This document shows, piece after piece, positions 8,686-12,311 of a DNA stretch of 19,509 nucleotides. The notes under the pieces were generated by a model. It worked only from the letters and a program-made list of their open reading frames with translations. It did not search any database and had not been told where the DNA came from. A program made the position numbers and the translations under genes. This DNA is from an uncultured Erythrobacteraceae bacterium (GTDB lineage: Bacteria > Pseudomonadota > Alphaproteobacteria > Sphingomonadales > Sphingomonadaceae), in the NCBI GenBank assembly GCA_946482075.1, contig CAMLQG010000070.1:1-19509 (forward strand). The letters run 5' to 3'. Positions within the stretch are counted from its first letter, which is position 1. Each line of letters starts with the position of its first letter.

Positions 8686-11475
8686 ATGAGCACCGCACTG
8701 GACAAGACTTTCGACCCCGCCGCGATCGAGGCGAAATGGTACGCACACTGGGAAGGCAATGGCCTTTTCCGGCCCGAGCGGCCGGACGCCCAGCCATTCA
8801 CCATCGTCAATCCGCCGCCCAACGTCACCGGCTCCCTCCATATCGGCCACGCATTGGACAACACTCTTCAGGACATTGTGATCCGGTACGAGCGTCTGCG
8901 CGGCAAGGATGCGCTGTGGGTGGTGGGCACCGACCATGCCGGAATCGCCACCCAGATGGTGGTGGAACGCCAGCTTGAGCAGCAGCAGGACAAGCGCACC
9001 AACTATTCTCGCGAAGCCTTCGTCGACAAGGTCTGGGAATGGAAAGCGGAAAGCGGCGGCCAGATCACGCGCCAGCTGCGCCGCCTGGGCTGTTCGATGG
9101 ACTGGAGCCGCGAACAGTTCACCATGGACCCGCATTTCACCCGCGCGGTGGTGAAGGTGTTCGTCGATCTCTACAACCAGGGCCTGATCTATCGCGACAA
9201 GCGGTTGGTGAACTGGGACCCCAAGCTCAAGACCGCGATTTCCGACCTCGAAGTGGAAACGCAGGAGATCAAGGGCGGCTTCTGGCACTTCCGCTATCCG
9301 CTGGCCGACGGCGTGAAGCTGGACAACGGCGCGGACCACATCGTCGTCGCGACCACGCGGCCCGAAACGATGCTGGCGGACATGGCCGTGGCCGTGAATG
9401 CCGAGGACCCGCGCTACAAGAGCGTGATCGGCAAGGAAATTCTCCAGCCGATCACCGGCCGCCGGTTCAAGGTGGTGGCGGATGAGCACGCCGATCCGGA
9501 ACTCGGCTCGGGCGCGGTGAAGATCACGCCGGGGCATGACTTCAACGACTTCGAAGTGGGCAAGCGCGCGGGCATCAAGCCCGCCGACATGCTCAACATG
9601 TTCGATGCCGAAGCGAAGGTCGTGCAGACGGCGGACGGGCTGGTGCCCGAGAAATATCTCGGCCTCGATCGCTTCGTCGTTCGCGAGATGATCGTGGCGG
9701 ACATGAAGGCGGCCGGCTGCCTCGTTCCGCATGTGACGAAGAACAAGGATGGCGAGGAGATCGAACAGGACTTCGAACCGCGCACGATCCAGACGCCGTT
9801 CGGCGATCGCGGCGGCGTGGTGATCGAACCCTGGCTGACCGACCAGTGGTATGTCGATGCCGAGACTCTCGCCCAGCCCCCGATGCAGGCCGTGCGCGAT
9901 GGCCGAATCGAGATCGTGCCGAAGAGCTGGGAAAAGACCTTCTTCAACTGGATGGAGAACATCCAGCCTTGGTGCGTGTCGCGCCAGCTGTGGTGGGGGC
10001 ACCGGATTCCGGCGTGGTATGCGGAAGACGGCAGCGTCTTCGTGGCCGAGACCGAGGAAGAGGCCCAGGCGCTCGCCGGCCACAAGAAGCTGACGCGTGA
10101 CGAAGATGTGCTCGACACATGGTTCTCCTCCGCGCTGTGGCCCTTCGCCACGCTCGGCTGGCCGGAGGGACAGAACGAATCCGTTCGTCCTGAGCTTGTC
10201 GAAGGACAGTCCTTGTCTTCCGAAGAGAAAAGCGGTGCTTCGACAGGCTCGGCACGAACGGAAATAGGGAAATCCGCTCTCTACCAGCGCCACTACCCCA
10301 ACGATCTCCTCATATCCGGCTTCGACATCCTGTTCTTCTGGGATGCGCGCATGGCGATGCAGGGGATGCATTTCAACGGCGGGCAAGTGCCATGGAAGCG
10401 GCTCTATCTCCATGGCCTCGTCCGTGCGGCGGACGGGCAGAAGATGTCCAAGTCCAAGGGCAACGTCGTCGATCCGCTGGGCCTGATCGACCAGTACGGT
10501 GCGGATGCGCTGCGCTTCTTCATGGCGGCGATGGAAAGCCAGGGCCGCGACGTGAAGATGGATGAGAAGCGGGTCGAAGGATACCGCAACTTCGCCACCA
10601 AGCTATGGAATGCCACGCGCTTCTGCCAGTCGAACGGCATCGGCGCGAGCAGTTCCATCGCCGCGCCCGCGGCCACGCTCGCGGTGAACAAGTGGATCAT
10701 CGGCGACGTGGTCGACACGCTGGGGGAGCTGGACAAGGCGATGGCCGACCTCCGCTTCGACGCGGCGGCCAACGCCATCTACCACTTCGTGTGGGACCAG
10801 TTCTGCGACTGGTATCTGGAACTGATCAAGGGCCAGATCGACAACGAGACAAAGGCTGTCGCCGCCTGGGTGCTCGACCAGATCCTCGTCATGCTGCACC
10901 CGTTCATGCCCTTCATCACCGAAGAGCTGTGGCATGCGCAGGGCGAGCGGCCCTATGAGCTGATCCTGGCGAAGTGGCCTGAACCGAAGGCGGCGGTGGA
11001 TGCCTCGGCGAAGGCCGAAGTCGAATGGATGATCGGCCTCACCGGCGGCCTGCGCGCCGCCAAGAACGAGCTCGGCATCGCGCCGGGTGCCAAGCTGGAT
11101 GCCTATCTGGCTGAACCCAGTGCAGCGGCGCGCGATGCGATCGCCCGCAATGCCGGCGCGATCGAACGTCTCGCGCGTCTTTCCGCGATCAACTTCGCTC
11201 CCGCCCCCGCAGGAGCCGCGATGCAGCTTGGCGTGGGCGAGGACACCTTCGTCATCCCGCTCGAAGGCGTGATCGACATCGCGGCGGAGAAAAGCCGGCT
11301 CGAGAAGGCACTCGCTGTCTCGCAGAAGGAAGCGAAGTCGCTCGAAGGGCGGTTGGGCAACCCTGCCTTCGTGGAGAAGGCAAAGCCCGAAGCCGTCGAG
11401 AAGGCCCGTGCGGACCATGCCGCCCATACGGCGGAGGCCGAGCGGCTGGCGGCGGCCTTGGCGCGGCTGGGCTAG
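8686..11475 (+). CDS. valS: Valyl-tRNA synthetase carrying an in-frame palindromic insert
   Basis: ValRS charges tRNA(Val) with valine in the cytoplasm. The 929-residue protein has the class I HIGH motif ([14 protein letters not shown] at 52-55), an editing domain inserted in the catalytic core, KMSKS ([10 protein letters not shown], 586-590), an anticodon-binding helical domain and a C-terminal coiled-coil arm from about residue 865. Residues about 499-528 ([10 protein letters not shown] ... [10 protein letters not shown]) are encoded by an 88-bp palindromic repeat between the conserved TLGWPE and [20 protein letters not shown] blocks. The frame stays open and all key motifs are intact, so the enzyme is probably active. 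The ATG at 8686 gives a normal N-terminus; an open frame upstream is not needed. Confidence 0.96.
10181..10268. repeat. 88-bp imperfect palindromic element inside valS
   Basis: The left arm (10181-10207, starting CCGTTCGTCC) and right arm (10235-10261) are complementary with 4 mismatches in 27 positions. The 27-base centre contains TCTTCCGAAGA. A second copy of the same length lies at 11486-11573, with 14 differences in 88 positions counted by hand and no gap. It is translated in the valS frame. The element carries no gene of its own and must be moved, if at all, by functions in trans. Confidence 0.9.
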
Positions 11476-11485
11476 TCCCATGCGG

Positions 11486-11573
11486 CTGTTCGCGCTGAGC
11501 TTGTCGAAGCACCGTACTTTTCTTCCGAAGAGAAAAGCGGCCCTTCGACAAGCTCAGGGCGAACGGAGATAGG
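11486..11573. repeat. Second copy of the 88-bp palindromic element, valS-queE spacer
   Basis: Arms 11486-11512 and 11540-11566 are complementary with 4 mismatches in 27, around the core CTTTTCTTCCGAAGAGAAAAG-like centre. It fills nearly all of the 101 bp between the valS stop and the queE start. The RNA hairpin may separate valS and queE expression, but no T-run follows, so I do not call it a terminator. It ends three bases before the queE GTG. Confidence 0.9.
11565..11568 (+). promoter_or_regulatory. Shine-Dalgarno of queE, provided by the repeat
   Basis: GGAG lies 8 bases before the GTG start of queE and falls inside the right end of the 88-bp element. The copy in valS reads GGAA at this position, so the single-base difference matters for ribosome binding. 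The right arm that pairs in the hairpin ends at 11566, so half of this site could be masked when the hairpin forms. Confidence 0.6.
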
Positions 11574-11576
11574 CGC

Positions 11577-12311
11577 GTGGTGCTAGTCCTCGCCACCACC
11601 ACTCCAGGCGAACCGGAGATCTTCGCCTCGCTCCAAGGCGAAGGGCCGTCCGCCGGGCGGCCGTCCGTGTTCGTGCGCCTGTCCCGGTGCAATCTCGCCT
11701 GCCAGTGGTGCGACACCGCCTATACTTGGCGCTTTACCGGCGACAATCGCCCGCATCGCGACGGCACGGCGTATGACCGCGCGGAGAACCAGCTCACGCT
11801 GGAGGAAGCGGATATCGCCGCCCGGATCGCGGCTCTCAATGGCAACAGGCTGGTCATCACCGGCGGCGAACCGCTGATGCAGGGGCCTGCGCTGGCCCGC
11901 ATGCTCGACGCGTTGCCGGCGATGCATGTGGAAATCGAGACCAACGGCACGGTAGCACCCCATCCCGCGCTCGATGCGCGCGTCGATCAGTACAATGTCA
12001 GCCCCAAGCTCGCCCATAGCGGCAATCCGGCCGATCTCGCGCTGGTCCCCGCGCGGCTGGCCGCCTGGGCCCAGGATTCGCGCGCCTTCTTCAAATTCGT
12101 GATCGCTGAGCCCGAGGATGTGGCCGAAGTGCTGGCGCTCCGGGCGGAATATGCGATCCCTCCCGAACGCATCTTCCTGATGCCCGAAGGCACCGACAGC
12201 GCCACGCTGCGGAGCCGCGAGACATGGCTGTCCGATCTATGCGTGGAGCACGGCTTCCGCATGAGCGACCGGCTGCATATCCACCTTTACGGGGATGCAC
12301 GGGGGACTTGA
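11577..12311 (+). CDS. queE: 7-carboxy-7-deazaguanine synthase (radical SAM)
   Basis: QueE turns 6-carboxytetrahydropterin into 7-carboxy-7-deazaguanine in the queuosine/preQ0 pathway. The 244-residue product shows the N-terminal substrate-binding EIFASLQGEGPSAGRP, the radical SAM cluster motif CNLACQWCDT (cysteines 38, 42, 45, CX3CX2C) and the SAM-binding VITGGEPLMQ (GGEP at 96-99), then EIETNGT and YNVSPKL. The start is GTG at 11577, which gives the typical N-terminus (LVLATTTPGEPEIF). No queC or queD is in the window, so the other pathway genes are elsewhere. It converges with the HerA-like gene, with 22 bp between stops. Confidence 0.95.
   Translation: MVLVLATTTPGEPEIFASLQGEGPSAGRPSVFVRLSRCNLACQWCDTAYTWRFTGDNRPHRDGTAYDRAENQLTLEEADIAARIAALNGNRLVITGGEPLMQGPALARMLDALPAMHVEIETNGTVAPHPALDARVDQYNVSPKLAHSGNPADLALVPARLAAWAQDSRAFFKFVIAEPEDVAEVLALRAEYAIPPERIFLMPEGTDSATLRSRETWLSDLCVEHGFRMSDRLHIHLYGDARGT

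Follow-up and report, generated by a model that had tools for sequence, protein, structure and literature searches.

How does a palindromic repeat come to lie in frame within the gene of a valyl-tRNA synthetase (ValRS), and which enzyme could have moved it there? The question is raised by the valS gene on a 19,509-nt stretch of DNA from an uncultured Erythrobacteraceae bacterium (contig CAMLQG010000070.1), here called the window. A first-pass annotation, made from the sequence by a model, had described an 88-bp palindrome adding about 30 residues to ValRS, with a related non-coding copy nearby, and had likened it to the Rickettsia palindromic elements. The features at the locus are as follows.

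8686..11475, plus strand: valS, valine--tRNA ligase, 929 aa (NCBIfam PRK05729.1, 1184 bits, and TIGR00422, 970 bits, both over cut-off; match to PDB 1gax)
10168..10293, plus strand: whole variable loop of ValRS, 42 codons between GWPE and YPNDLL (8-9 codons in most relatives)
10180..10268, plus strand: family A palindromic element, an inverted pair of REP-like arms, GTTCGTCCTGAGCTTGTCGAAGGAC ... GTGCTTCGACAGGCTCGGCACGAAC, read as SVRPELVEG...
11488..11573, plus strand: second family A element, in the gap between valS and the next gene, starting 13 nt past the valS end
11577..12311, plus strand: queE-like radical SAM gene 3' of valS (7-carboxy-7-deazaguanine synthase families, all under curated cut-offs)

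The palindromic element in valS

The two arms of the element (10180-10220 and 10222-10262) are 78% complementary and are separated by a 1-nt spacer. The 88 nt from 10181 to 10268 fold as DNA at -26.7 kcal/mol vs -12.0 (sd 2.3) in 200 shuffles (z -6.3), none of which folds as well, confirming that a palindrome lies in frame inside valS. The second element, 85% identical to the first and 1305 bp away from start to start, is located between the valS stop (11475) and the following start (11577) and folds with a z of -8.5; the non-coding copy claimed near valS is therefore real. The loop is 42 aa long in the window compared to 8-9 aa in most relatives, and it is also short in the ValRS of T. thermophilus (1gax), to which the HMMER alignment is interrupted at this place (query 496 to 535), in agreement with what had been claimed for homologues. 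The size of the addition had been underestimated: the palindrome does add residues in frame, but the true gain is about 33-34 codons (about 100 nt), a little over 88 bp. About 34 codons are far too few for a self-splicing intein or a group I intron.

In an AlphaFold2 model (50-sequence alignment, mean pLDDT 79.9), a check that the first-pass annotation had itself suggested, ValRS residues 496-529 are below pLDDT 50, as are two short stretches elsewhere, 46-51 and 588-593. The peptide added to ValRS is probably unstructured on this prediction. Read by eye, the window arms (CCGTTCGTCC...) contain CGTTC and lack a CGTC tag, and the left arm consists of a 5 bp stem, two mismatches, one pair and the loop CTTGT. 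The arm ends carry no GTAG, and the window gives no Rfam match at gathering thresholds.

It should be mentioned that other palindromes lie in the window. A near-perfect palindrome with CGTC-type ends (CGTCATCGCGAG...CTCGCAATGACGG) at 1609-1698, within the 5' part of a minus-strand ORF (1250-1702), folds with a z of -11.3 when taken as 1611-1700; it looks like family H, which flanks GIY-YIG genes in relatives. At 16-161, part of a family H-like palindrome (16-52) adjoins, by eye, a family F-like one (about 77-161, ACTTGTTTCAGGGTCCA...AACCAAGTTCAGCATGACGG).

Repeated filling or emptying of the ValRS loop

Related valS loci (the best 80 of 593) were compared, with loop states assigned by pattern and four loci outside the pattern read by eye. 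The family labels A, B, C, D, F, H, K and L are our own and were given by short script patterns, some by eye. Among these best 80 of 593 loci, 16 have a long palindromic insert at the ValRS loop, and four families are represented: family A (L019, L021 and L066, in addition to the window), family D (L020 and L044) and the GC-rich families B and C (11 loci). For each of the 16, none of 100 base shuffles folds as well (z from -3.2 down to -8.1). Short hairpins are found at two loci of the same 80 (L001, L014), 21-aa loops that fold no better than shuffles at two (L026, L047), and loops of 8-12 residues at 60. L060, counted with the last group, looks like a family C remnant; the loops of L001, L060 and L014 hold short hairpin or arm remnants resembling decayed or deleted palindromes.

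The loop has been filled or emptied repeatedly, by different families. In a ValRS tree calculated with the loop excluded, from 79 loci and the window (L072 left out; quick LG+G4, SH-aLRT only) and with remnants and 21-aa loops coded as filled, there are 15 changes between empty and filled, gains and losses counted together, of which 12 are forced by starred branches; over family labels, the changes number 19. Sister loci differ (L006 is filled, L055 empty), and in the smallest starred set containing the window two rows are of family B and one is of family C. The distance from GWPE to the arm, in residues, is variable.

ValRS proteins were also examined in a search that listed 120 of 7999, a biased sample in that the query region included the insert. 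Among these 120, 111 fit the pattern (30 loops are empty, 31 are of family A, 7 of family D and 38 of GC-rich type, 2 hold DUF559 and 3 are of other kinds), and the nine outside it comprise seven with a GC-rich type insert and two left unread. All 31 listed ValRS classed as family A carry the insert in the frame RPELVEG...STSSART, which the pattern itself seeks; several of the 31 share one insert, and the three unclassed inserts show no other family A frame. One partial ValRS from a MAG (P0001) has the loop and its following segment twice, once filled and once empty, and is probably a misassembly.

The location of family A copies was counted in relatives, with ORFs called by codon GC bias, without a gene finder. 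Seven paired family A elements are present in 81 sequences (979 kb), four of them in ORFs and all four of those at the valS loop; the count is biased, since the sequences are the 80 valS-chosen loci plus the window. In one genome, G016, 20 elements were inspected, of which 17 are intergenic, one is at an ORF edge, one is in a doubtful 125-aa ORF and one is in valS, which is the one clear coding copy. These 20 were chosen as head-to-head pairs, so that their dimer form does not itself count as a result.

These comparisons bear out the claim that the insert is a dispersed repeat, and the likeness drawn to Rickettsia palindromic elements is apt. Those elements are in-frame palindromes in functional genes to which they add tens of residues. 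The common feature is insertion in frame into a functional gene, here valS; the likeness is one of description. Host and sequence differ, and family A in G016 is mostly intergenic (17/20). The first-pass annotation was right about a repeat kept in frame but too narrow, as the insert is no one-off and the same loop receives four palindrome families as well as a DUF559 nuclease domain; its interpretation is supported in part, and the likely partner nucleases are absent from it. By its own account, a repeat would be contradicted if distant genera had an unrelated loop of matching length and position. Such loops do exist, yet all 16 long inserts beat 100 of 100 shuffles as hairpins, which strengthens the repeat reading.

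Nuclease genes between inverted arms

In family A, the gene found between palindromes encodes a small GIY-YIG nuclease (L181, L182). The association was evaluated in 26 sphingomonad genomes, picked mostly for a filled valS, in which 90 of 106 GIY-YIG places were tested: 74 small genes and 16 presumed UvrC genes, the latter recognised by open-frame length (at least 600 aa) rather than by a family search. The flank threshold was set at 31, the score that cuts off the top 1% of 1000 random windows drawn from the valS loci; the highest of these windows scored 700. By this measure 62 of the 74 small genes lie between inverted arms and 12 have no arms over the threshold, compared to none of the 16 presumed UvrC genes and 2 of 176 small predicted ORFs used as controls. 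Copies with the gene between family A arms exist in 10 cases, in the genomes of eight relatives. Arms of other GIY-YIG-linked families, namely F, H and many of K and L, contain CGTC.

Family A arms range from 0 to 147 per genome among the 26, with medians of 91.5 in the eight genomes that have a family A GIY-YIG gene vs 11 in the other 18 (p = 0.0009, uncorrected for kinship). Genome G013 counts against a cognate role for the nuclease: family A arms number 147 there, but all four of its GIY-YIG matches were tested and none is flanked by this family. In a class-wide sample of 58 genomes, 30 of 57 GIY-YIG matches were taken as loci, and 27 remained after removal of two from G016 and one with a short flank. 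Twelve of these 27 are flanked by inverted arms, family A-like and CGTC-type included, and 15 are unflanked. The link between nuclease and arms extends past the first 26 genomes and is far from universal.

A few GIY-YIG frames run on past the nuclease. At L198, L202 and L204, in three genomes, the frame continues into RNA methyltransferase-like sequence, which we take to resemble TrmJ/SpoU; perhaps this is another recurrent site or a fusion. At L235, a GIY-YIG frame with family A arms continues into pseudouridine synthase-like sequence, presumably RluD-like.

The second nuclease, DUF559 (Vsr-like), is found at the ValRS loop itself; the loops encountered here include none with a GIY-YIG. A search among long proteins with the DUF559 part of a loop-bearing ValRS returned 18 proteins, 15 of them ValRS with DUF559 between GC-rich arms at the same loop; the other three, judged by their Pfam accessions, look to us like a biotin carboxylase, a Mur ligase and a helicase. 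Fourteen of the 15 can be followed through to the far side of the insert, and P0133 stops within it. P0122 and P0123 share one insert, so the 15 proteins are not 15 events. As we read them, the Pfam lists of the 15 contain no intein accession. In some ValRS, such as P0124 and P0125, the loop seems to hold two arm sets, tandem or nested, which suggests repeated hits at one site.

DUF559 genes are present in 25 of the 26 sphingomonad genomes. Of 88 places, 73 were taken and one had too little flank; 48 of the remaining 72 are flanked by inverted arms that score above 99% of random windows, and 24 have no arms over the threshold. A clade of 15 DUF559 rows (L102-L105, L120, L146, L147 and others), spread over many genomes, is without arms in 14 cases and looks domesticated. 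Its fifteenth row, L145, is located beside family F palindromes; this is treated as chance, although the row is included in the 48. Long reading frames surrounding DUF559 were considered as further in-frame fusions and set aside, several of them looking like antisense frames in GC-rich genes.

Both nuclease trees follow arm family. Arm-family changes number 18 in the GIY-YIG tree (74 rows) vs 48.3 in shuffles and 11 in the DUF559 tree (70 rows, calculated without the partial domains L118 and L119) vs 36.0, with none of 200 shuffles as low in either case. Families B and C, which account for 43 DUF559 rows, are separated by one change vs 14.6 in shuffles. It is noted that these trees are short (about 100 columns) and contain many weak forks.

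Candidate mobilisers and the nature of the ValRS site

The window insert alone is an instance of something already known: in-frame palindromes in Rickettsia proteins and REPs in tRNA synthetases have both been reported, and the insert is therefore not new in kind. In the available portions of Di Nocera et al. (2013, PMC3733652), the CGTC-tagged REP super-family is described as common in alphaproteobacteria, the class in which it was mostly found, with short hairpin arms, mostly in head-to-head dimers and mostly intergenic, and with no dedicated transposase. REPs are sometimes found in ORFs, including tRNA synthetases of E. litoralis and S. alaskensis that these portions do not specify further, and the CGTC REPs include Rickettsia RPE-4 and RPE-6; Rickettsia palindromic elements are described there as entering functional genes without loss of frame and lengthening the product by tens of residues. 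The same portions report no nuclease link for CGTC REPs. Family A resembles this super-family in its hairpin arms, head-to-head dimers and mostly intergenic location, as seen in the window element with its copy and in 17 of 20 elements in G016. In contrast, the family A arms of the window have CGTTC in place of the tag CGTC (TGTC/CCTC) and fall outside the tag definition, and their stem around the loop CTTGT is, by eye, imperfect. A stem of 8-9 bp and a loop of 4-5 nt are given for CGTC REPs.

The available text of Dunin-Horkawicz et al. (2006, PMC1564403) on GIY-YIG proteins describes one recent GIY-YIG insertion into an HsdR protein and does not contain "palindrom-". Neither GIY nor endonuclease occurs in the main text, as available, of a 2025 REP survey (PMC12306157), and in the accessible part of a Caulobacter VsrA paper (PMC12907096) a DUF559 protein is handled as an enzyme with a predicted function in repair. 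None of the CC-licensed PMC papers listed (at most 20 per search) connects REPs with GIY-YIG or DUF559 nucleases.

We consider it likely that the insert is a non-autonomous REP-like mobile palindrome, lying in frame in a ValRS loop predicted to be unstructured, with a GIY-YIG nuclease as its cognate enzyme. Arm pairs occur both empty and enclosing a nuclease gene, each arm family goes with a single enzyme clade, and many family A copies are gene-less; this is the anatomy of an autonomous/non-autonomous pair, by analogy with REPINs and RAYTs. A small nuclease of its own tends to accompany every repeat family and is a candidate for the missing agent of movement. From these associations we infer movement driven by the nuclease. 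The cognate nuclease would recognise its own arms and cut or nick target DNA, and host repair would copy the element in, in a homing-like manner; in the stead of a RAYT transposase, the nuclease would drive the spread of both nuclease-bearing and nuclease-less copies. In valS, an insertion would survive only where it leaves the reading frame intact and the peptide it adds is unstructured. Homing endonucleases include GIY-YIG and Vsr-like kinds and are free-standing or carried by inteins and introns. Nuclease fold and a recurrent site in a conserved essential gene are alike in the two systems; here, the insert stays in the ORF, and nuclease-less copies of family A far outnumber nuclease genes.

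The association alone would fit either a nuclease that moves the palindrome or one that settles in it. In the latter case, the nuclease genes would be parasites homing into, or tolerated in, the loops of palindromes moved by other machinery. Insertion sequences are reported to target REPs in the available part of PMC1525189, and some GIY-YIG genes (L181, L182) have a complete palindrome, not a single arm, on each side. Such parasitism seems unlikely: each nuclease clade is largely bound to one arm family across genomes, GC-rich arms occupy the ValRS loop whether or not they enclose the nuclease, Y1_Tnp, the one other mobiliser tested, offers no apparent alternative, and parasitism would itself need cognate recognition.

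That the insert is an adaptive feature of ValRS, serving regulation, editing or tRNA binding, is very improbable. ValRS is essential, the insert is kept in frame, and the family A frame recurs in 31 of 31 listed ValRS so classed; the site is, however, filled by different peptides of various lengths, close relatives do without an insert, and the inserted segment is predicted to be unstructured.

A slimmer prospect still is that a RAYT (tyrosine transposase) moves the repeats, as proposed for GTAG REPs and REPINs. The anatomy is REPIN-like, with inverted arms, a short loop and up to 147 arms per genome, and REPIN/BIME systems share with the present families the inverted arm pairs, the many copies and a gene-bearing form between arms. 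In RAYT systems, enzyme and repeat families go together. The gene in those systems is a Y1 transposase, in place of a GIY-YIG or DUF559 nuclease, and the window arms lack the GTAG ends. RAYT-type genes (Y1_Tnp, PF01797) were found in only 7 of the 26 genomes, and none in G001, G005 and G007, which have 84, 58 and 19 family A arms. RAYT genes of GTAG REPs are flanked by cognate repeats; in contrast, none of 13 Y1 loci in the relatives has a family A arm, and the RAYT was rejected as mobiliser. Inverted flanks, though of a different kind, do accompany two of the 11 Y1 loci that could be tested, and G016 has Y1_Tnp genes.

An assembly error or one-off strain artefact is next to negligible, for although the exact window protein comes from one contig only (P0002), inserts of this kind occupy the loop in independent assemblies, isolates included.

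Returning to nuclease-driven movement, a broader proposal is quite possible and is put forward tentatively: that RAYT-less REP-like palindromes may form a separate nuclease-driven class, with GIY-YIG enzymes for CGTC/CGTTC-type arms and DUF559 for GC-rich arms, and that the ValRS loop may be a genuine homing-like target visited independently by both. Visits by families tied to two unrelated nucleases favour a loop that is merely tolerated, and the few other coding copies in small samples favour one that is targeted.

The mobiliser of CGTC REPs is left open in the available portions of Di Nocera et al. (PMC3733652), and a cognate nuclease for each family is a directly testable answer. It would give a likely role to many small GIY-YIG and DUF559 genes and would explain palindromes in frame inside proteins. 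Related bacteria have the ValRS loop empty, filled by a palindrome alone or filled with a nuclease as well, which makes it a convenient site for an assay.
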